The translations under genes were made by a program, and so were the position numbers. From assembly GCA_003551305.1 (NCBI GenBank), contig PUMJ01000298.1, positions 1-35,092 on the forward strand: a stretch of DNA of 35,092 nt, given 5' to 3'. How positions within the stretch are numbered: the stretch's first letter is position 1; every line of letters begins with the position of its first letter. The DNA is from Candidatus Brocadiaceae bacterium. GTDB lineage: Bacteria > Planctomycetota > Brocadiia > SM23-32. A model generated the notes under the pieces. It searched no databases. It worked only from the letters and a program-made list of their open reading frames with translations, and was not told the DNA's origin. Shown here one piece after another: positions 14,646 to 26,599 of the stretch.

Positions 14646-16091
14646 TCAGCGCCCGCGCTCCCGGCTCAGGATGTCCCAGTAGGCCCCTCGGGCGCCATCA
14701 CGTATGGCCTCGCACAGGGCCGCGTTGTCGTTGTAGTTGTAGTCCTCGACCTGCTGCGGCGCCGCGGGCGGGAAGAACCTGCGGTCCTCGGCGATGATGT
14801 TCCGCACGAGCCGCGCCGGCTCCGGGCCGAGTTCGGGACTGATGTAGAAAACCGGCATGAGCAAGGGGGCGTCGGGGCCGACCGAACCTCCCAGTACGTG
14901 CACGCCGGGCCGGTTGGGCAGGCCGCCGTCCGCGCGCAGCCGACGGGTGAGCGGTGTGCCGGGATAAAGCCTCACGCCCAGCGCCGCGCCCACGCAGTCG
15001 GGGTCCGTGGCCTTCATGAAGCCGATGCTCTCGCGCACCGTCTCCGGCGTCTCCCCGGGGCCGCCCAGCAGCAGATCAACCATCACGCGCATGCCGTTCT
15101 CTTTGCAGAGGCGCACGGCCCGGGCAATGTCCTGCTTGCCGTGGCGTCGGCCGTAGACGCGCAGCATGTCGGCGCTCGCGCTGTCCGTCCCGAAGTTTAC
15201 CCCCACGCATCCGGCGCGCCGCATGGCACGGGCCAGCTCTACGCTGAAGGGCACTACGGCGGCGTAGGTGTACCACCGGAGGCGTTCGCCCAGTCCGCGC
15301 CGTGCGAACTCCCGGCAGACGGCAAGCGCATGCTCTTCATCGGCGTTGAACTCGCTGTCGCACAGGTGCAGCACGTCCACCCCCCGGGCCAGCAGGCTCT
15401 CGGCTTCGTCGGCGACTTCGCCGGGGGGCCTTCCCCGCACGATGGCCCCTTTGATGAGTGGGTCGGCGCAGTAGGCGCAGTGCCTGTCGCAGCCGCGCGC
15501 GGTTTCCAGACCCACCTGACCGCCCTCGCGGAAGTAGCGCGCGTTGTCCGCTACGTCTCTCGCCGTGGGAAGAGACAACGGGCGCGGATACTCCTGCGGG
15601 TTGATGCGGCACGGGCCACCATCGTGCGGTCGCCAGACCAGGCCCGGCACGTCGGCCGGTTCGCGACCGGCTTCCAGAGCGTCCAGCAGGCGGACGATGA
15701 CGGCTTCCCCCTCTCCGGCGATGCCGAACTCACAGCCGGTCGCCTCCACTATGGCCCGGGGGAAGACGCTGAAACCGGCCCCGCCGAGCACGACCGGGGC
15801 GTCGGTATGGCGCCGAACACAACACAGAATCCCCTGCAGCCCGGGGACGAACGACTGCCCGCTGGGCCAGAAGCAATCGTCGGTATTTCGAAAGCTAACG
15901 CCCACCAGCAGGGGGGTGGCGTTCCTGAGTCCGGCTTCCAACGCCTTCGCGGCGTCCTCGGCCAGGTTCAAGTCTATCAGGCCGACGCGCCGGCCCGATC
16001 GCCGAACGGCGCCGGCCAGGTAGTCCAGCCCGATTGGCGCTATGGGTGGGCGGACCTCGTTGGCGTTGATGAGTATGAGGTCGTCCGGCAT
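14646..16091 (-). CDS. B12-binding-domain-type radical SAM protein
   Basis: MPDDLILINANEVRPPIAPIGLDYLAGAVRRSGRRVGLIDLN (B12-binding-like N-domain); GLETARGCDRHCAYCADPLIKG (CxxxCxxC); CVGVNFGTDSASADMLRVYGRRH; MVDLLLGGPGET. Confidence 0.85.
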   Translation of the reverse strand: MPDDLILINANEVRPPIAPIGLDYLAGAVRRSGRRVGLIDLNLAEDAAKALEAGLRNATPLLVGVSFRNTDDCFWPSGQSFVPGLQGILCCVRRHTDAPVVLGGAGFSVFPRAIVEATGCEFGIAGEGEAVIVRLLDALEAGREPADVPGLVWRPHDGGPCRINPQEYPRPLSLPTARDVADNARYFREGGQVGLETARGCDRHCAYCADPLIKGAIVRGRPPGEVADEAESLLARGVDVLHLCDSEFNADEEHALAVCREFARRGLGERLRWYTYAAVVPFSVELARAMRRAGCVGVNFGTDSASADMLRVYGRRHGKQDIARAVRLCKENGMRVMVDLLLGGPGETPETVRESIGFMKATDPDCVGAALGVRLYPGTPLTRRLRADGGLPNRPGVHVLGGSVGPDAPLLMPVFYISPELGPEPARLVRNIIAEDRRFFPPAAPQQVEDYNYNDNAALCEAIRDGARGAYWDILSRERGR

Positions 16092-16111
16092 GGGACGCAT
16101 TCCCTTTGTAG

Positions 16112-16139
16112 TTGCCCTCTCGAGTCCGGCCGGTATTAT
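16112..16139 (+). promoter_or_regulatory. Putative promoter TTGCCC-N16-TATTAT; -10 overlaps a minus-strand TATAAT (16140-16135)
   Basis: Read directly in the divergent intergenic region between ATG 16091 (-) and ATG 16215 (+). Confidence 0.35.
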
Positions 16140-16214
16140 AGACGCCTCAGGCACTTTGTGCATCATACCGGCCAGCGCACGCCTGTGGGCGTAACCCGGC
16201 CGGGGGAGGGAAAG

Positions 16215-17846: not shown

Positions 17847-19244
17847 ATGAGCGAAGAAGCGAACGGCAAGCGTCTATTCAGCGCGGGTGGAGTGATACCG
17901 AATCTGGCGCTCAGAGCGGAGCTTGGCCCGCCCCGCAGCGAATGCGGGGTGGGGGCGCTCATGCCCTGGGCCGGGCGCCTCTGGGTGGTGAGCTACGTGT
18001 CGCACAAGAAAGGGAGCGGGGTCGGCACGGGGTTCTACGAGATCGACGACGATTTCAACCTGACTAAACGCCCCGAGAGCCGCGTCGGCACCTACACAAA
18101 CCGTATGGTCCACTACCCCTCCAATCAGCTCATCATGGGCCCGCATGTCGTTGACGCCGAGCGCAACGTGCGCACCGTGGAGGAACTGACTGACGTCCGG
18201 CTCTGCTCGACCATGAGGCACCTGGAAGACCCCGACAACATGGTGTACATGCTGGGCATGGAGGGAAAATTCTTCGAGATGAACGTCGAGACACTCGAAG
18301 TGACTCACCTGTTCGACCTGACCGAGGAACTGCGCGTCGAGGATCCGCCCTTCGTCCATTTCAAGGCCGGGTACTGCGCGATGGGCAGGGTGGTCGTCGC
18401 CTCGAACAACTATTCGGAGGCCGACTTCCTGGGCACGGCCCAGGAGGGCCGGCTGGCGGAGTGGCAGGGGCAGGAATGGCGCATCCTGGAGCGCAAGCCG
18501 TTCGTCGAAGTGACCGGCCGGGGCGGCTTCGCCGGGACGATGTTCGCCACGGGCTGGGACCGCGCCTCCGCCATCCTGAAAGTCTACACCGACGACGACC
18601 GGACCTGGCGCACCTACCGCCTGCCGAAGGCCAGTCACACGTTCGACCACCTGTGGCAGACTGAGTGGCCGCGTATCCGCGAGACCGAGCACGAGCGGTT
18701 CCTGATGGACTGCCACGGCATGTTCTACGAGCTCTCCCCCTGGGCCTACGAGAACCGGATCTGGGGCGTGCGGCCCATCTCCACTCACCTCTGGGTGCTG
18801 GGTGACTTTTGTAGCTGGCGCGGAATGCTTGTACTCGGGGCCGACAACGCGTCGCCCTCCGGCCGGTTGAACCACCTGGCCGGAGAGCCCCAGTCGGGGC
18901 TCTGGTTCGGCAAGACCGACGACCTATGGCAGTTCGGCAAGCCCGCCGGATGGGGAGGACCCTGGTGGAAGGACACCGTCGAGGCCGACCGGCCCTCTGA
19001 CCCCTATCTGATGACCGGCTTTGACAGGAAGGTCCTGCACCTCTCGCACGGCGAAGCCAGCCTCGTGACCTTTAAAGTTGAAGTGGACTTCCTGGGCGAC
19101 GGGACGTGGCGGGCCTATGACGAGTTCGAAGTGGCCGCTGCGGGTTACGTACACCACGAATTCGCCCCCGGTTTCAGCGCGCACTGGCTGAGGGTGAGCG
19201 CCGACACCGACTGCCGGGCGACAGCCTATTTGCACTACACGTGA
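17847..19244 (+). CDS. Hypothetical protein (possible beta-propeller plus C-terminal sandwich)
   Basis: MSEEANGKRLFSAGGVIPNLALRAELGPPRSECGVGALMPWAGRLWVVSYVSHKKG...; long open frame with good start and repeated W/G-rich blade-like segments; no family recognised. Confidence 0.7.
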   Translation: MSEEANGKRLFSAGGVIPNLALRAELGPPRSECGVGALMPWAGRLWVVSYVSHKKGSGVGTGFYEIDDDFNLTKRPESRVGTYTNRMVHYPSNQLIMGPHVVDAERNVRTVEELTDVRLCSTMRHLEDPDNMVYMLGMEGKFFEMNVETLEVTHLFDLTEELRVEDPPFVHFKAGYCAMGRVVVASNNYSEADFLGTAQEGRLAEWQGQEWRILERKPFVEVTGRGGFAGTMFATGWDRASAILKVYTDDDRTWRTYRLPKASHTFDHLWQTEWPRIRETEHERFLMDCHGMFYELSPWAYENRIWGVRPISTHLWVLGDFCSWRGMLVLGADNASPSGRLNHLAGEPQSGLWFGKTDDLWQFGKPAGWGGPWWKDTVEADRPSDPYLMTGFDRKVLHLSHGEASLVTFKVEVDFLGDGTWRAYDEFEVAAAGYVHHEFAPGFSAHWLRVSADTDCRATAYLHYT

Positions 19245-19413
19245 TGCCCGAGGAGGTGTACGGTCTGTCGCCGTTTGCGTGGCGCCGTTGCCATCCTGCC
19301 ACCGTGCGGTCCTGTTCGTTGCGCTGTGACCGTCGTGTCCGCCCCGCGGTGGGCAGACGGAGTGGTCAGCCTGTGCCGTCCGTGCCCGGGTCGGTCACCG
19401 GCGGAGAATGCAG

Positions 19414-19442
19414 TTGACTTCCGGATACTTAGCGGCTAGAAT
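19414..19442 (+). promoter_or_regulatory. Putative strong sigma70-like promoter TTGACT-N17-TAGAAT driving the riboswitch leader
   Basis: TTGACT 19414-19419, 17-bp spacer, TAGAAT 19437-19442; predicted start about 19449, immediately before riboswitch 1. Confidence 0.65.
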
Positions 19443-19449
19443 GCTGGGT

Positions 19450-19612
19450 ACGTGGATGGCCCGGGAGGGCCCCCTGAAGAGGGAAGAGCGGTGCAACTCC
19501 GCCGCGGACCCGCCGCTGTGACCGGGGACGAAAGCCGCAAGTGAGCCACTGTCCCGCCCGCGGGACGGGAAGGCGCGGCCGGTAGGACGATCCGGAAGCC
19601 AGAAGACCTGTC
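19450..19612 (+). ncRNA. Cobalamin riboswitch 1 (transcription-terminating type)
   Basis: GAGCCACTGTCCCGC...GGGAAGGCGCGG...GGAAGCCAGAAGACCTG (B12 box and 3' conserved AGCCAGxAGACCTG); P5/L5 GCGG-TGCAACT-CCGC; CCCGCCGCTGTGACCGG. Confidence 0.9.
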
Positions 19613-19692
19613 CACGGCTTGCTGCGTGCCGGGTGTTCCCGTGGCCTGGAACCTCGTGGAGACGGTGCGCACCAGAGGATGGAATACGGCAT

Positions 19693-19725
19693 CCCCGCAA
19701 CCCGCAAGGGTTTCGGGGTTTTTTT
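19693..19725 (+). terminator. Rho-independent terminator between the two riboswitches
   Basis: CCCCG-C-AACCC-gcaa-GGGTT-T-CGGGG followed by TTTTTTT. Confidence 0.9.
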
Positions 19726-19747
19726 GTTGGGCGGCGCCGCGTCGGGG

Positions 19748-19902
19748 TCGCTAGGGAACGGACATCGGATCAAGGGAAGGGAGTGCGAATCTCCCGCTGC
19801 CCCGCAACTGTATCCGTGACGAAGGCCGCATCAGGGCCACTGTCCCGCCCGCGGGATGGGAAGGCGCGGCCGGAGGATGAGCGGAAGCCAGGAGACCTGT
19901 TC
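19748..19902 (+). ncRNA. Cobalamin riboswitch 2 (immediately upstream of the TonB-dependent receptor)
   Basis: GGGAGTGCGAATCTCCCGCTGCCCCGCAACTGTATCCG...GGGCCACTGTCCCGCCCGCGGGATGGGAAGGCGCGG...GATGAGCGGAAGCCAGGAGACCTG matches the cobalamin riboswitch consensus. Confidence 0.95.
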
Positions 19903-19921
19903 CGACGTCCCATCTGTAACC

Positions 19922-19950
19922 CGCACTCCCCGAGGGGGGAGAAAGGAGTG
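19922..19950 (+). promoter_or_regulatory. Candidate expression platform of riboswitch 2 overlapping the Shine-Dalgarno
   Basis: CACTCC (19924-19929) complementary to GGAGTG (19945-19950, contains the SD) and CTCCCC (19926-19931) complementary to GGGGAG (19936-19941); mutually exclusive. Confidence 0.5.
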
Positions 19951-19954
19951 AAGC

Positions 19955-21922
19955 ATGTGGCGGATCGGTTGCCTTCTGCTGGCTGTGGGACTGTGTGCGT
20001 TGGGACCGGTGGCGAGGGCATCAGAGGAGCCCGAAGAGGAAACGCCCTCCGGGGAAGTCGAGCTTGCGCCCGAGGCGCTGGAGGTGGATCCGGAGCGTAT
20101 CGTCGTCACCGCCACGCGCATATTGACACCCGAACGGGAAGTCGCCAGTTCCATTACCGTGATCGACCGACAGGAGATCGAGCGCAAGCAAAGACGCTTC
20201 GTGGTCGACCTCCTGCGCGAGGCGCCCGGGGTCGACGTCGTGCAGAGCGGCGGCCCGGGCCAACCGTCCCAGGTCTTCCTGCGGGGGGCTAAACCGGAAC
20301 ACACCCTTGTCCTCATAGACGGCATCGAGGCCAACGACCCCTTCTCGCCGGGGCGCACCTTCAACTTTGCCGGGCTCACCACTGACAACATTGAGCGCAT
20401 CGAGATCATCCGCGGCCCCCAGAGCACCCTCTACGGCTCCGACGCCATGGGCGGGGTCGTCAACATCATAACCCGGCGCGGAGTCGGCCCCCCCAGCGGT
20501 TTCGTCACGGGTGAGGCGGGCTCACGGGACACCTACCGCACTGCCGTCGGCCTTCGCGGCGCCCAGGGTGCCTTCGATTACTCACTCAGCCTCAGCCATT
20601 ACACCACTCGCGGCATTTCGGCCGCCGACGCCTCCCTGCCCGGCAACACAAAGCGCGACGGATATGAGAACACCACGCTTTCGAGCCTGCTGGGCTGGAC
20701 CCCGAACGATGCTTTCAGCCTCGACCTCATCCTGCGCTACAGCGATGGAGAGGGCGAACTGGACCAGTTCGGCGGCCCTTTCGGGGACGACCCGAACTAC
20801 TTTTTCAGGGACAAGGCATTCTTCGGTCGCCTCCAGGGAACCCTGGTCACGCCGGATGGCCGTTGGGAGCAGAAGCTCGGCGTCTCGTTCACGGACTACG
20901 ACCGGCGTTTCCGTGATGATCCGGACCCGATGCGCCCGATGACGATGCTCCGCAGCAAGTACAAGGGCCGGATCCTGAAACTCGCCTGGCAGAGTGATTT
21001 CTACCTGAGCGACGTGCACACCATCACCTTCGGGCTCGAGACCGAGGAAGAATCCGGCCGTTCGCGGATCCACTCGGAGAGCGAGTTGGGGCCGTTCACC
21101 AGCGTCATCCCCGAGCAGAAGGCCCGCACCAACAGCGCCTATTTGCAGGACAGCATCAACATCGGGGACACGTTCTTCGCCACGGTCGGCGCCCGCATTG
21201 ACGACCACGAGGAGTTCGGGTCCGAGACCACGTACCGCATTGCGCCGGCCTACCTCATCGAAGAGACCGGCACCAAGCTGAAAGGAAGCTGGGGCACCGG
21301 CTTCAAGGCGCCGACGCTGTTCCAGCTTTTCTCCGAGTTCGGCGACCCCGACCTCGACCCCGAGCGGAGCAAAGGATGGGACGTCGGGGTGGAGCAGCAT
21401 CTGGCCGGGGACCGGCTGATGGTGGGCGCCACGTACTTTCACAATACGTTCGACGACCTGATTGATTTCAACCCGGCCACATCCACCTACTTCAACATTG
21501 ACAGGGCCCGCACCCGGGGCGTGGAGCTGACGGGGGCCGTCAGGGCAACAGACGATCTCTCGTTCCGGGCGACTTACACGCGGCAGGACACCGAGGACCG
21601 AAACACGGGCGAATCCCTGCTGCGCCGCCCGGAGGACCAGGTCAGCTTCGACGTGAACTACACCCTCCGCCGTAAGACGAACCTCAACCTGAACGTGGTC
21701 TATGTGGGGCGGCGCGAGGACATGGACTTCAATGTGTTCCCTGCCGAGCGCGTGGACCTGAGCAGCTACATGCTGGTGAACCTGGCCGCTGTGCACGACG
21801 TCAGCGATCGGTTCCAGCTCTTCGGGCGGATTGAGAACGTGTTGGACAAGGACTACCAGGAGGTCTTCGGTTTCGGCACGCCGGGACGCGGTTTTTTCGG
21901 CGGAGTGACGGTCAGATTCTGA
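19955..21922 (+). CDS. btuB: TonB-dependent outer-membrane receptor, cobalamin (BtuB-like)
   Basis: Signal peptide MWRIGCLLLAVGLCALGPVARA; TonB-box-like ERIVVTATR; plug VVDLLREAPGVDVVQSGGPGQPSQVFLRG, NIERIEIIRGPQSTLYGSDAMGGVVNIITR; terminal FFGGVTVRF; downstream of a cobalamin riboswitch. Confidence 0.92.
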   Translation: MWRIGCLLLAVGLCALGPVARASEEPEEETPSGEVELAPEALEVDPERIVVTATRILTPEREVASSITVIDRQEIERKQRRFVVDLLREAPGVDVVQSGGPGQPSQVFLRGAKPEHTLVLIDGIEANDPFSPGRTFNFAGLTTDNIERIEIIRGPQSTLYGSDAMGGVVNIITRRGVGPPSGFVTGEAGSRDTYRTAVGLRGAQGAFDYSLSLSHYTTRGISAADASLPGNTKRDGYENTTLSSLLGWTPNDAFSLDLILRYSDGEGELDQFGGPFGDDPNYFFRDKAFFGRLQGTLVTPDGRWEQKLGVSFTDYDRRFRDDPDPMRPMTMLRSKYKGRILKLAWQSDFYLSDVHTITFGLETEEESGRSRIHSESELGPFTSVIPEQKARTNSAYLQDSINIGDTFFATVGARIDDHEEFGSETTYRIAPAYLIEETGTKLKGSWGTGFKAPTLFQLFSEFGDPDLDPERSKGWDVGVEQHLAGDRLMVGATYFHNTFDDLIDFNPATSTYFNIDRARTRGVELTGAVRATDDLSFRATYTRQDTEDRNTGESLLRRPEDQVSFDVNYTLRRKTNLNLNVVYVGRREDMDFNVFPAERVDLSSYMLVNLAAVHDVSDRFQLFGRIENVLDKDYQEVFGFGTPGRGFFGGVTVRF

Positions 21923-21938: not shown

Positions 21939-22559
21939 ATGTACGAAGTGTTCAGCAGAGGCGGCCCGCTGATGTGGCCGCTGTTGCTGTGTTCGGTGGT
22001 CTCGCTGGCCATCGTCATAGAGCGGGCGCTGTTCTGGTGGCGGCTGGGGCGCAACCGCGACGACGGTGTCGTTGAGGACATGCTGCAGCGGGCCGAGCAG
22101 GGGGACTTCGAGGGGGCGGTGCGGCGCGGCGCCGGCATCGGGGACGTGGTGGCCGAGGTGCTGGCGGCTGGGCTCGCCCATCGCGACCACGGCCTGACTG
22201 AGGCCATGCAGGTGGCCGCCGAGGACCAGGTGGCGCGTCTCAAGCGCGGCGTGAGGGTGCTCGACACTATCATCACCCTGGCGCCGCTGCTGGGTATCCT
22301 CGGCACCGTCCTGGGCATCATCCAGTCCTTTGACATGCTCGGCCAGGCCGGTATAGATGACCCGCGCGCCGTCACCGGCGGCATAGCCCAGGCGCTCATC
22401 ACTACAGCGGCCGGCCTCTCGATAGCCATCATCACGCTCATCCCGCACAACTACCTGGTCCATGCCGTGGAGCGGGCGGTCGTGCGCATCGAGAGCATGG
22501 CCACGAGCATGGAGGTGGCCTACCGGAGAGGTCTGGAGAACGGCGATGAAGCTGCGTAG
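21939..22559 (+). CDS. exbB: MotA/TolQ/ExbB proton channel family protein
   Basis: GGPLMWPLLLCSVVSLAIVIERALFWWR...RGVRVLDTIITLAPLLGILGTVLGIIQSFDMLGQAGIDDPRAVTGGIAQALITTAAGLSIAIITLIPHNY. Confidence 0.92.
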   Translation: MYEVFSRGGPLMWPLLLCSVVSLAIVIERALFWWRLGRNRDDGVVEDMLQRAEQGDFEGAVRRGAGIGDVVAEVLAAGLAHRDHGLTEAMQVAAEDQVARLKRGVRVLDTIITLAPLLGILGTVLGIIQSFDMLGQAGIDDPRAVTGGIAQALITTAAGLSIAIITLIPHNYLVHAVERAVVRIESMATSMEVAYRRGLENGDEAA

Positions 22560-22959
22560 CGGTTACGAAAAGCACAAGGCCCGTGTCGAGATGCTGCCCC
22601 TGATAGACATCGTATTCCTGCTGCTCGTGTTTTTCATCTACGCCATGCTCTCAATGGTGGTGCACAGGGGGTTGCCGGTCAACCTGCCCGGGGCCGCCAC
22701 CGCTGAGCCGGACCAGCGGGACTACGTTGGCATCACGATCACGGCCGACGAAGCCGTCTATTTCAACAGGGAGCTTGTAGAGCCCGACGAACTGCCCCGG
22801 CGTATACGCGCGGTCCGGGAGGAGCATCCGGAGATGCCGGTCTTCATCAGCGGGGACGTCAGGGCCAGTTTCGGCCTCAGTGTGCAGGTGCTCGACCTGT
22901 TGCGCCAGGCCGGGGTGAGCGAAGTGAGTTTCGAAGCCCGGGAGGTGAGCGAACCGTGA
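22546..22959 (+). CDS. exbD: ExbD/TolR family protein
   Basis: MKLRSGYEKHKARVEMLPLIDIVFLLLVFFIYAMLSMV; ATG overlaps the end of exbB. Confidence 0.92.
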   Translation: MKLRSGYEKHKARVEMLPLIDIVFLLLVFFIYAMLSMVVHRGLPVNLPGAATAEPDQRDYVGITITADEAVYFNRELVEPDELPRRIRAVREEHPEMPVFISGDVRASFGLSVQVLDLLRQAGVSEVSFEAREVSEP

Positions 22960-23798
22960 GGGGGCGCTACGGGGTGTCATTCCTGGTCTCCCTTCTGCTG
23001 CACGGGCTTTTGCTCGGCCTTGCCGGGTGGTATGTTGCCCCGGAGGTCATGTTCGATCCCGGGGCGGCGGCGGTCACTCTGAGCGTGATGCCATCCGTGG
23101 CCAGCCGCGCCGGTGATCCCGAACCGCGGACGGAGACGCAAAGCGCCGAGCCGGCGCCTCCCGAAACCCCTCCGCCCGCGGAAGAGCCTCCGCCACCCGC
23201 GGAAGAGCATGCGCCGCCGGAGGAGGTGCCGGCTCTGCCGCAGGTTGTGCAAAGGCCCCCCCGGCCGCGGCCGCTCCCCGAACCGCCGGATCCGACCCCG
23301 CAGACGCCCCCAAACGCCGAAACCGCCGAGCAGGACAGGCCGGAAGAGAGTTTCGAAGCCGCCCGCAACGAGGCGCCGCAACAGGAAGAGACAGAACCGC
23401 AGGCAGAGCGCGAACCGGATGCGACTGGCGAAGAGAGCGCTGTCGCCGCCCCACAGTCTGAGTCCGAGCTGGACTCGGTGGACGCCGACGCCGACCCGCG
23501 TGAGACGGGCGTCACCGCCCCGGCGCGCACGGCCCGGCCGCCCAGCCCCACGTATCCTCTGCTGTCGCGCCGTCGGGGAGAGGAAGGCGACGTGGTGCTG
23601 GAGGTGCTCGTGCTGCCAAGCGGCGAAGCGGCAGAGGTGACGGTCGTGCGCTCCAGCGGGCACCGGCGGCTGGACCGCGCCGCTGCGCGCGCCCTGGAGG
23701 AGGCAGAATACGTCCCCGCCCGGCGCCGCGGCGTTCCCGTCGAGGCGCGTCGGCGCCTCACCATATCCTTCCGCCTTGACGGTGTGGATGGGCGGTGA
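22956..23798 (+). CDS. tonB: TonB family energy-transducing protein
   Basis: N-terminal TM, long Pro/Glu-rich linker, C-terminal TYPLLSRRRGEEGDVVLEVLVLPSGEAAEVTVVRSSGHRRLDRAAARALEEAEYVPARRRGVPVEARRRLTISFRL (TonB_C). GTGA overlap with exbD. Confidence 0.9.
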   Translation: MRGRYGVSFLVSLLLHGLLLGLAGWYVAPEVMFDPGAAAVTLSVMPSVASRAGDPEPRTETQSAEPAPPETPPPAEEPPPPAEEHAPPEEVPALPQVVQRPPRPRPLPEPPDPTPQTPPNAETAEQDRPEESFEAARNEAPQQEETEPQAEREPDATGEESAVAAPQSESELDSVDADADPRETGVTAPARTARPPSPTYPLLSRRRGEEGDVVLEVLVLPSGEAAEVTVVRSSGHRRLDRAAARALEEAEYVPARRRGVPVEARRRLTISFRLDGVDGR

Positions 23799-23839
23799 CG
23801 GCACAAACCGCAAGGTTGTGCAATCGAGGAGGACAGGCG

Positions 23840-24781
23840 ATGCTGGACTCACCTCTCGGCAAGGCTGTCGTGGTAGTGATCGCGTTCGCCGCAGGCCTGG
23901 CGGCGTCCATAGGTCTGGCGCGCCTCCGGCCCGGCCCGATGGCTCCGCTGACCGGGGAAACCGAAGCCGCACAGGAACCTCGCCGGCGCCACTACGAGCG
24001 CATCATCTGCATGTCGCCGGCCGCCACCGAGATAATCTTCGCCATCGGGGGGGGGCCACAGGTCGTGGGTGTCAGCCAGCACACCGTGTGGCCGCCGGAG
24101 GCGCTGGACAGGCCTCGCTGCGGCGGCTTCTTCAACCCCAGCTACGAACGCATTCTGAACCTGGAGCCGGACCTCATCGTAACGCAGGGGGAGGCGGCCG
24201 GGCTGTCCGCTTTTGGGGAATCGCACGGCATAGACGTGTTCCGCCTGAGGCTCACGGACCTGGACTCCATTTTCGCCGAGGTCAACCGTGTGGGACGGAT
24301 TCTGGGGCAGGAAGCCGGCGCAGAGCTGGTGAGCGCCGAGATGCGCTACCGGCTGGCCCGGGTGCGGGCGAGGATCGCTGACAGGCGCCCCGTACCTGTG
24401 CTCCTGGTCACCGGGCGGCAGGCGGACACACTCAGCGACATCCGGACCGCGGGCAAGGGCACTTTCCTGCATGATCTGGTCGAAGCGGCCGGGGGTCTCA
24501 ACACCTTCGGTGACATGGACGAAAGCTATGGGCTGGTCAACAAAGAGGCGCTGGTGGAGCGCGCCCCGGAAGTCATCGTGGAACTGCACGGGGAGGGCGG
24601 CGACCCGGCGAAGGCCCTCTCTGAGGCGCGGGCGGCATGGGGCGAGATGGCGTCCCTGCCGGCCGTGCGACAGGGGCGCATCCACGTCATCGAGGCCACC
24701 TATGCCATGATACCCGGGCCGCGCGTGGTCGAGCTGGCCGAGCGCCTGGCCAAAATGCTCCACCCGGAGGAGGCCCCATGA
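23840..24781 (+). CDS. btuF: Cobalamin/iron-chelate ABC transporter substrate-binding protein (BtuF-like)
   Basis: RIICMSPAATEIIFAIGGGPQVVGVSQHTVWPPEA...NPSYERILNLEPDLIVTQGE...; N-terminal hydrophobic segment. Frame also open from 23795 (GTGA overlap with tonB). Confidence 0.85.
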   Translation: MLDSPLGKAVVVVIAFAAGLAASIGLARLRPGPMAPLTGETEAAQEPRRRHYERIICMSPAATEIIFAIGGGPQVVGVSQHTVWPPEALDRPRCGGFFNPSYERILNLEPDLIVTQGEAAGLSAFGESHGIDVFRLRLTDLDSIFAEVNRVGRILGQEAGAELVSAEMRYRLARVRARIADRRPVPVLLVTGRQADTLSDIRTAGKGTFLHDLVEAAGGLNTFGDMDESYGLVNKEALVERAPEVIVELHGEGGDPAKALSEARAAWGEMASLPAVRQGRIHVIEATYAMIPGPRVVELAERLAKMLHPEEAP

Positions 24782-25581
24782 GCGAAGTGCTGCTTTCGGC
24801 CCGGGGCTGCTCATACGTTTACCCGGACGGAGGTTTCCGCCTCGATGACGTCTCGCTGGACGTGCATGCCGGAGAGGTTCTGGCCCTGGTCGGCCCCAAC
24901 GGATCGGGCAAGAGCACTCTGGTGCGAGTGATGAGCGGGTTCTACACGCCGGACGGAGGTATGGTGTTGCTGGACGGGCGGCCCATCCACAGGATGCCGC
25001 GCCGCAAACTGGCCAGGGAGCTTGCCTTCCTGCCCCAGGAGATCCCGGCTGCTTTCCGGTTCAGCGTCCGCGAGGTCGTCGCGATGGGGCGGTTCCCCTA
25101 CCAGAGCGCCTTCGGTTTCGTCTCCGCAGAGGACGCGGCCGTCGTGCAGCAGGTGATGGAGGAGACGGGCACGACCGGGTTGGCCGATCGCGTATTCAGC
25201 ACGCTGTCCGGGGGGGAAAAGCAACGCGTCCTGGTGGCGGGCGTGTTGGCCCAGCAGCCGCGCGTAGTGCTGCTGGACGAACCCACCGCCGCCCTGGACA
25301 TCCACCACCAGGCGGACGTGCTGGACCTGCTGTGGCGGCTCTCGCGCAAAGGCATCGGCGTCGTGACCGTCACGCACGACCTGAACGCCGCCAGCCAGTT
25401 CTGCGACCGGCTTGCGCTGCTGTCGCGGGGGCGCCTGGTGCGGGTGGGTCGGCCGGCGGAGGTCATAGACCAGGATTTGCTGTGCAACGCATATGGGGCT
25501 GACGTGCGCGTGCTGGAGAACCCGCTGACGGCGGGGCCGCTGGTGCTGGTGCCCGGGGAGGCCGCTCATGAGTCGCGATAG
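24778..25581 (+). CDS. btuD: ABC transporter ATP-binding protein (BtuD/FecE family)
   Basis: LALVGPNGSGKSTLVRVMSG (Walker A), TLSGGEKQRVLVAGVLAQQPRVVLLDEPTAALD (signature and Walker B); ATGA overlap with btuF. Confidence 0.92.
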   Translation: MSEVLLSARGCSYVYPDGGFRLDDVSLDVHAGEVLALVGPNGSGKSTLVRVMSGFYTPDGGMVLLDGRPIHRMPRRKLARELAFLPQEIPAAFRFSVREVVAMGRFPYQSAFGFVSAEDAAVVQQVMEETGTTGLADRVFSTLSGGEKQRVLVAGVLAQQPRVVLLDEPTAALDIHHQADVLDLLWRLSRKGIGVVTVTHDLNAASQFCDRLALLSRGRLVRVGRPAEVIDQDLLCNAYGADVRVLENPLTAGPLVLVPGEAAHESR

Positions 25582-26599
25582 GGGGCACGTGACAGCGCGG
25601 GCCCTGGTGCTCTCCCTTCTCGGAGGGCTGGCGCTGTGGGTTGTGGTGGGTGCTGGATGCCTGTTTTTCGGCCAGGTGCCTCTGGCGGCAGGGCAGGTGG
25701 TGCGTGTCCTGACCGGGGGCGAGGCACCGAGCGTAACGGCCGGTATTGTGCTGACCCAGCGGATGCCGCGCGTGCTGCTCGCCTTGCTGGTTGGGGGGGG
25801 GCTTGCGGTGGCCGGCGCTGCCTTCCAGGCCTTGCTTCGCAATCCCCTGGCCACGCCGCATACGCTGGGCATCTCAGCGGGGGGCGCCCTGGGGGCGGTG
25901 GCTGCCCTTGCGTTCGGCTTGCCGGCCCCCTCGCTGGGCCCGCTGGGGCCGGTTCAGTTCTTCGGCCTGCTGGGTGCGCTGGTCAATGTGGGTATCATCT
26001 ACATGCTGGCGCGTAGCCGGCGGGCCATCTCCCCCCTGAAGTTGCTGTTGGCCGGCGTCACCCTCAGCCTCATATGTTCGGCCCTCATTTTGTTCGTCCG
26101 GTTCGTCAGCGATCCACACTTGCTGGTGATGGTGGACCGCTGGTTGATGGGCGGGCTGGACGTGCAGGGGTTCGGCGGCGTGGCGTCCGTGCTGCCACTG
26201 CTGCTGCCGGCGCTGGCGCTGATGGGTCTGGAAGCCAATGCCATGAACCAGCTTGCCCTGGGGGAGGAACTGGCGGTGGGGCGCGGGGTCAGCGTGGGCG
26301 CGCTGCAGACGGAGGTCTTTCTGGCGGGCTCGGTCTTGACGGCAGGTGTTGTGTCAGTGGCCGGCCCCATCGGGTTCGTCGGGCTCATCATCCCCCACGC
26401 CGTGAGGGGGCTGGCCGGTCCGGACCACCGCCTGCTGCTTCCGCTGTGTTTGTTCGGGGGCGGGGCGTTTCTGGCGGTGGCCGACACGGTGGCCCGCTCG
26501 GCCTTTGCGCCGACCGAGATGCCGGTAGGCGTGCTGACGGCTATGCTGGGCGGCCCCTTCTTCCTGCTGATCCTTGTGACCCGACTCGGCGAGATGTAG
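25568..26599 (+). CDS. btuC: FecCD-family ABC transporter permease (BtuC-like)
   Basis: QRMPRVLLALLVGGGLAVAGAAFQALLRNPLATPHTLGISAGGALGAVAAL...GPIGFVGLIIPHAVRGLAGPDHRLLLPLCLFGGGAFLAVADTVAR; overlaps the btuD end. Confidence 0.92.
   Translation: MSRDRGHVTARALVLSLLGGLALWVVVGAGCLFFGQVPLAAGQVVRVLTGGEAPSVTAGIVLTQRMPRVLLALLVGGGLAVAGAAFQALLRNPLATPHTLGISAGGALGAVAALAFGLPAPSLGPLGPVQFFGLLGALVNVGIIYMLARSRRAISPLKLLLAGVTLSLICSALILFVRFVSDPHLLVMVDRWLMGGLDVQGFGGVASVLPLLLPALALMGLEANAMNQLALGEELAVGRGVSVGALQTEVFLAGSVLTAGVVSVAGPIGFVGLIIPHAVRGLAGPDHRLLLPLCLFGGGAFLAVADTVARSAFAPTEMPVGVLTAMLGGPFFLLILVTRLGEM

Follow-up and report, generated by a model that had tools for sequence, protein, structure and literature searches.

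The window, by which we mean the whole stretch of DNA analysed (35,092 nucleotides), carries on its forward strand a group of genes headed by that for a TonB-dependent receptor. The first-pass annotation had taken this receptor, with an ATG at 19955, to be BtuB-type, and the start codon as well as the plug and barrel domains agree with that assignment. The best NCBIfam match of the receptor was TonB-B12 (TIGR01779; 366 bits, under the 600-bit cut-off of that model). Genes for ExbB, ExbD and TonB, and then for the parts of an ABC importer, lie downstream, and this content (BtuB-ExbB-ExbD-TonB-BtuF-BtuD-BtuC) marks the group as a corrinoid (vitamin B12) uptake operon. The leader in front of the receptor gene contains two cobalamin riboswitches in series, and its features, together with the genes, are as follows (positions in the window).

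19414-19442, + strand: sigma70-type promoter, TTGACT-N17-TAGAAT, 10/12 consensus matches
19437-19629, + strand: cobalamin riboswitch aptamer 1, type A (GCGGACCCGCCGCUGU, CCAGAAGACC, P2 present), RF00174, 96.6 bits
19508-19512, + strand: L5 of aptamer 1 (ACCCG), kissing-loop partner of L13
19603, + strand: J6/3 junction of aptamer 1 with the type-distinguishing A (type B has G); 27/27 first aptamers have A
19623-19671, + strand: P13 hairpin of riboswitch 1, outer stem 19623-31/19663-71, inner stem 19635-39/19648-52
19693-19725, + strand: intrinsic terminator of riboswitch 1, stem 19693-19718, U-tract 19719-19725
19749-19920, + strand: cobalamin riboswitch aptamer 2, type B (GCUGCCCCGCAACUGU, CCAGGAGACC, P2 absent), RF00174, 93.4 bits
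19800-19804, + strand: L5 of aptamer 2 (CCCCG), kissing-loop partner of L13 at 19931-19936
19892, + strand: J6/3 junction of aptamer 2 with the type-distinguishing G (type A has A)
19919-19950, + strand: P13 of riboswitch 2 and outer pairing, stem 19926-31/19936-41, L13 CG-A-GGG at 19931-36; the stem covaries across relatives
19945-19948, + strand: Shine-Dalgarno GGAG, 6 nt before the ATG at 19955
19955-21922, + strand: BtuB-type TonB-dependent receptor (plug and barrel), first gene of the operon
21939-23798, + strand: ExbB, ExbD and TonB genes
23795-26599, + strand: BtuF-, BtuD- and BtuC-like ABC importer genes

Besides the operon, we noticed a gene for a radical SAM protein with a B12-binding domain on the reverse strand (14646-16166), ~3.3 kb upstream of the riboswitch leader.

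Anatomy of the leader

The Rfam covariance-model search of the window returned two separate and significant matches to one family model, RF00174, at 96.6 and 93.4 bits (E values of 4e-23 for aptamer 1 and 4e-22 for aptamer 2; curated cut-off, 31.5 bits). Both extend over model positions 1-189, that is, its full length, they are 119 nt apart, and they are the only RF00174 matches in the whole genome from which the window derives. Two head-to-tail cobalamin riboswitches had been proposed here in the first-pass annotation; the search bears this out, and the coordinates given for the leader were correct to a few bases.

The promoter at 19414-19442 was the sole promoter-like site in 18900-20100 (shuffled sequences average 0.1), with a predicted transcription start near 19449-19450, at the base of stem P1 of aptamer 1. 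Most relatives likewise have a comparable TTGACA promoter ahead of aptamer 1. In the gap between the two aptamers we found no promoter-like pair with at least 3+3 matches, and both riboswitches are thus predicted from the promoter scan to lie on one transcript. The scan agrees with the earlier proposals of a single upstream promoter and of no promoter between the terminator and riboswitch 2.

A strong intrinsic terminator had also been placed between the aptamers, and its stem (19693-19718; CCCCG-c-AACCC gcaa GGGTT-t-CGGGG, -17.5 kcal/mol) is indeed followed by seven T residues at 19719-19725, the sole T7 in a window of 66% GC. A standard terminator scan missed it because of the mismatch in the stem. 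Taken alone, the window terminator was matched by 1 of 40 shuffles, indicating that it is strong and not extreme. For the preceding P13 of riboswitch 1, there are two candidates for L13, namely CGUGG at 19640-44 in the loop of the inner hairpin and CGGGU at 19630-34. Among the candidate pairings in riboswitch 1 of the window, no unique antiterminator could be identified, and the strongest candidate pairs with the 3' arm of the terminator, which is kinetically awkward.

Riboswitch 2 is arranged differently in that its P13 lies at the ribosome-binding site. Nucleotides 19919-19922 are involved in an outer pairing with the Shine-Dalgarno region, and a competing helix (CACUCC 19924-29 with GGAGUG 19945-50) likewise covers the Shine-Dalgarno. 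No strong intrinsic terminator was found within 110 nt 3' of aptamer 2 in the window and in 50 other pairs from its relatives. The local fold hides the Shine-Dalgarno modestly, as 33 of 45 type-B platforms fell below the shuffle mean (unpaired, 0.35 vs 0.44; the window's own row is uninformative, its Shine-Dalgarno being misassigned there). Strong sequestration by the local fold alone was thus rejected, and the putative translational step would lean on a docked P13 and not on strong pairing. We also rejected a ligand-free state in which the P4 strand 19779-19787 pairs with 19922-19930: although it offers nine perfect pairs, the best fold is more stable by 14.6 kcal/mol, and the pairing is absent in the relatives checked, in which the longest complement is 5-7 nt.

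Corrinoid-bound aptamers are experimentally established to clamp P13 through an L5-L13 kissing loop, leading to a terminator or to occlusion of the ribosome site (PMC10653944). Among the elements compared, L5 reads CCCCG, ACCCG, UACCG, UCCCG or GCCCG. In 97% of cases, the P13 region of the same element contained a five-pair complement of its L5 (bulge of 0-2 nt), whereas complements of the other variants were present in 7%. The complementarity is kept in both elements of the window, and the covariation between L5 and L13 is the best evidence supporting both as working riboswitches. Duplicated elements can persist as remnants, and in one relative (G019b) the first element is degenerate and lacks a terminator, so that one of the window aptamers might be a decaying duplicate without function. 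We regard this as very doubtful, however, as both aptamers exceed 90 bits and have intact L5-L13 complementarity, and as each type is separately conserved across families.

Tandem pairs across the class

Defining a pair as two RF00174 elements on one strand with a gap of <350 nt, we found 56 close pairs, four of which contain an element under the curated cut-off, in 49 of the 65 genomes of the class with RF00174 matches. Genomes with a pair numbered 3 of 5 in f1 (the family of the window), 0 of 1 in f2, 0 of 2 in f3, 1 of 1 in f4, 24 of 31 in f5, all 8 in f6, 12 of 15 in f7 and 1 of 2 in f8; most of these genomes are fragmented draft assemblies, and pairs within one family are not independent. 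One genome (G069) has an additional pair with a 649-nt gap. A sample of 23 genomes taken elsewhere in the phylum yielded no tandem, with at most two matches per genome and never two on one contig, and six genomes of other groups encoding relatives of the receptor yielded 16 RF00174 matches and no close pair. Same-class tandem cobalamin elements had been called uncommon in the first-pass annotation. This holds for bacteria at large, in which they occupy <1% of leaders (PMC2258182) and 26 AdoCbl doublets were counted, filed as pseudo-cooperative (PMC9481103), but not for this class, in which tandems are the rule.

Hydrazine-synthase alpha (PF18582) was present in the tested genomes of f5, f6 and f7 except G013, and was absent from the f1 genomes tested, including that of the window. 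On this distribution f5-f7 were taken as anammox bacteria (class Candidatus Brocadiia, Planctomycetota), and the window is assigned, on the same indirect ground, to a family of this class that is not anammox. G009 and G011, which belong to the class but not to f5-f7, have 16 and 11 HZS_alpha-like matches, respectively, mostly in large ORFs; these numbers far exceed those of anammox-type genomes and probably reflect a paralogous expansion, and the marker by itself is therefore no proof of anammox. Judged from the genomes compared, the tandem is apparently a two-stage device conserved across the class, anammox bacteria included, and not a local oddity.

The anatomy of 55 pairs was scored together, and the order of aptamer, terminator, aptamer and gene proved to be nearly invariant. 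A strong terminator (-13 to -28 kcal/mol) follows aptamer 1 in 54 of the 55, the sole exception being G019b with its degenerate first aptamer, and in the 27 pairs tested each of these terminators was matched by at most 1 of 40 shuffles. After aptamer 2, a terminator of this strength occurs in four pairs only (G022, G015, G013 and G033). Aptamer 2 adjoins the start codon in 51 of the 55 pairs, mostly at a distance of ~25-35 nt, and 49 of these 51 have a short hairpin (typically YYYC-CGAGGG-GRRR) immediately adjacent to the Shine-Dalgarno. When the alignment was anchored on the loop, the first four positions of the type-B P13 stem were paired in 46/46, 46/46, 46/46 and 42/46 distinct sequences, with C-G, U-A and U-G as alternatives. 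The idea put forward in the first-pass annotation, transcription termination at stage 1 followed by a probably translational gate at stage 2, is supported by this comparison, since the terminator is tied to aptamer 1 and nearly all pairs without a second terminator have a conserved L13 hairpin at the ribosome-binding site.

An alternative is that both elements act on transcription, the second via Rho or an unrecognised terminator within the gene, and that the pair gives a steeper dose-response and not two levels of control. Translational riboswitches can also trigger Rho, and four relatives truly have two terminators in series. The survey of doublets likewise lists AdoCbl doublets only as pseudo-cooperative (PMC9481103). 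Against such a pseudo-cooperative pair stand the lack of a strong intrinsic terminator after aptamer 2 in the window and the 50 other pairs, and the P13 hairpin abutting the Shine-Dalgarno in nearly all pairs without a second terminator. We thus consider this alternative improbable, and control at two levels remains the preferred reading.

Two aptamer types and their history

In an alignment of the first 27 pairs, later extended to the pairs scored together, four columns split the aptamers into type A (GCGGACCCGCCGCUGU, CCAGAAGACC) and type B (GCUGCCCCGCAACUGU, CCAGGAGACC). The first aptamers were type A in 27 of 27 cases, and the second aptamers are type B except for exactly those four with their own terminator, which are type A. 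Two of the diagnostic columns are partners in the short stem closing L5 and change together, from U-A to G-C, and the fourth is located in J6/3. Type B is also without stem P2: a fold below -4 kcal/mol was obtained for the P2 region of 93% of the first aptamers vs 14% of the type-B aptamers. Aptamer type tracks output, as judged by sequence and comparison: A goes with a terminator and B with a ribosome-binding site. Type A is not confined to tandems: in other groups, the single riboswitches that we checked likewise have GAAGACC. When the type-B 3' core together with L13 was sought beyond the class, the exact matches resembled coding sequence that fits by chance and were discarded.

In the aptamer tree, the label 'second aptamer' needs 2 changes vs 34.6 in shuffles. 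Constraining all 46 type-B aptamers to one clade was not rejected (p-AU 0.78) and even raised the likelihood. From the tree, the two aptamers look like distinct and old types whose split predates the families. The accessory arms of the two window aptamers nevertheless share 37 of 38 bases (19545-19582 vs 19836-19873), as a recent local duplication in the window lineage would leave behind. Such a duplication is hardly credible, because in the tree aptamer 2 of the window falls among second aptamers from sister genomes and aptamer 1 among first and single aptamers, rather than the two beside each other, and because the identity is confined to one arm and has counterparts in other pairs, as gene conversion would give. 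The tree thus rejects a recent duplication, except for the arm, and the homogenised arm looks like the product of gene conversion. Similar near-identity patches between both aptamers of one leader were seen in G060, G066, G028 and G045.

The fixed differences between the types raise the possibility that they sense different corrinoid forms, distinguished by upper ligand or lower base, which would be compatible with a two-level mechanism. The types differ at four core positions, one of them in J6/3, a junction that bears on the question of ligand differences, and P2 was lost in the second type. In other cobalamin riboswitches, corrinoid selectivity is influenced by the aptamer domain and, in one scaffold, by P2-L2 (PMC9600662). 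On the other hand, one model fits both types from end to end, the large P6 accessory region included, and a broad sensitivity to corrinoids is described for cobalamin riboswitches (PMC9600662); the differences may merely reflect coupling to different platforms. We therefore regard a gate with two ligands as possible and on balance unlikely, and the same holds for its class-wide form, namely a device of two anciently diverged subtypes, each locked to one output level and sensing a different corrinoid form. If true, transcription and translation of the B12 uptake genes would read different chemical signals, making a two-input gate out of one riboswitch class.

A putative two-stage switch and known systems

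The leader is probably a two-stage OFF/OFF cobalamin switch of the 'bi-mechanism' kind that shuts down the corrinoid-uptake operon. From one promoter, an RNA would be made in which aptamer 1 folds first. If corrinoid binds there, the L5-L13 kissing loop would hold P13, the terminator at 19693-19725 would form, and transcription would stop before aptamer 2; the efficiency of termination and the size of its effect, like the antiterminator partner, are predictions at this point. Transcripts that escape would carry aptamer 2, on which corrinoid binding would clamp P13 by its kissing loop, and the ribosome presumably could not start, as the 3' side of this P13 abuts the Shine-Dalgarno.

Same-class tandems are usually explained as steepening the dose-response. 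The many natural replicates, the covarying kissing loops and the rule linking type to output make a direct test possible: whether two levels give more than steepness, such as a later and reversible brake on existing mRNA, and whether both elements share a ligand. For anammox bacteria, which are difficult to grow in culture and important in the nitrogen cycle, the proposed switch offers a suggestion of how B12 uptake may be controlled.

Tandem AdoCbl riboswitch doublets were reportedly described by Sudarsan et al. in 2006. The doublets counted in PMC9481103 resemble the window in having two cobalamin riboswitches per leader, each with its own expression platform, whereas neither a type split linked to terminator and ribosome site nor class-wide conservation, both found here, is reported in the accessible part of that source; the 26 doublets may include members of this class. 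The same source names a class of 'bi-mechanism' tandems with SAM-II/SAM-V as its example, for which by the authors' account not all doublets were evaluated, and it also mentions mixed-platform SAM-II/SAM-II doublets (PMC9481103). In SAM-II/SAM-V, as in our reading of the window, the first element terminates transcription and the second controls translation, with the same ligand there and a presumed one here; the SAM aptamers, however, belong to different classes, whereas those of the window are two subtypes of one class (cobalamin), each tied to one output (PMC9481103). In Desulfovibrio (PMC545781) and at tenA of Bacillus anthracis (PMC12121620), tandem THI (TPP) elements are, as here, same-class and in series, each a full riboswitch, but both elements terminate transcription, unlike our reading of the window. 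The L5-L13 kissing loop of the Priestia megaterium metE cobalamin riboswitch stabilises P13 and favours the terminator, as proposed here, although this single cobalamin element is in tandem with a SAM riboswitch (PMC10653944). Cooperative aptamers of the glycine type share one expression platform, unlike the window with its terminator between the aptamers, and a pseudo-cooperative tandem has an intrinsic terminator at the end of the second riboswitch, which the window lacks and G022, G015, G013 and G033 have. A 2025 survey of contiguous riboswitches gives an expectation for control at different levels, and the passages of it that were searched contain no cobalamin example of the two-level kind (PMC12452182). 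Our literature search found no description of tandem riboswitches in anammox bacteria. Cobalamin doublets and bi-mechanism SAM systems were thus known already, and what we did not find described in the accessible literature is a bi-mechanism cobalamin tandem that is same-class, subtype-specialised and class-wide.

Several variants were observed among the loci compared. Four (L143, L144, L145 and L154) show the order aptamer-terminator-aptamer-terminator, i.e., the pseudo-cooperative version, with two type-A elements. In f6 and part of f5 (L138, L140, L147 and L155), an OprB-like porin (PF04966) follows the tandem in place of the TonB-dependent receptor, which suggests a B12-regulated porin in anammox bacteria. 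In f5, a start-stop mini-ORF, consisting of a purine run like a ribosome-binding site, an ATG and an immediate stop (e.g., AAAGGAGTGTATATGTAA), lies ~20-45 nt upstream of the aptamer at L144, L145, L148, L149, L150, L151, L153, L155, L156, L157, L158, L190 and L193-L196; riboswitches with it are mostly without a good promoter of their own, and it is absent in the window. A single type-A riboswitch in G004, G005, G010 and G012 (L131, L132, L134 and L135) is followed by an ORF with a prepilin-like start (MRRQAFTLMELLVVISII...), with a gene for a corrinoid ABC transporter ATPase farther downstream in G004. A Desulfuromonas MAG (L162, 5873-6147 and 6362-6542) has a match to a group II intron immediately downstream of a cobalamin riboswitch.
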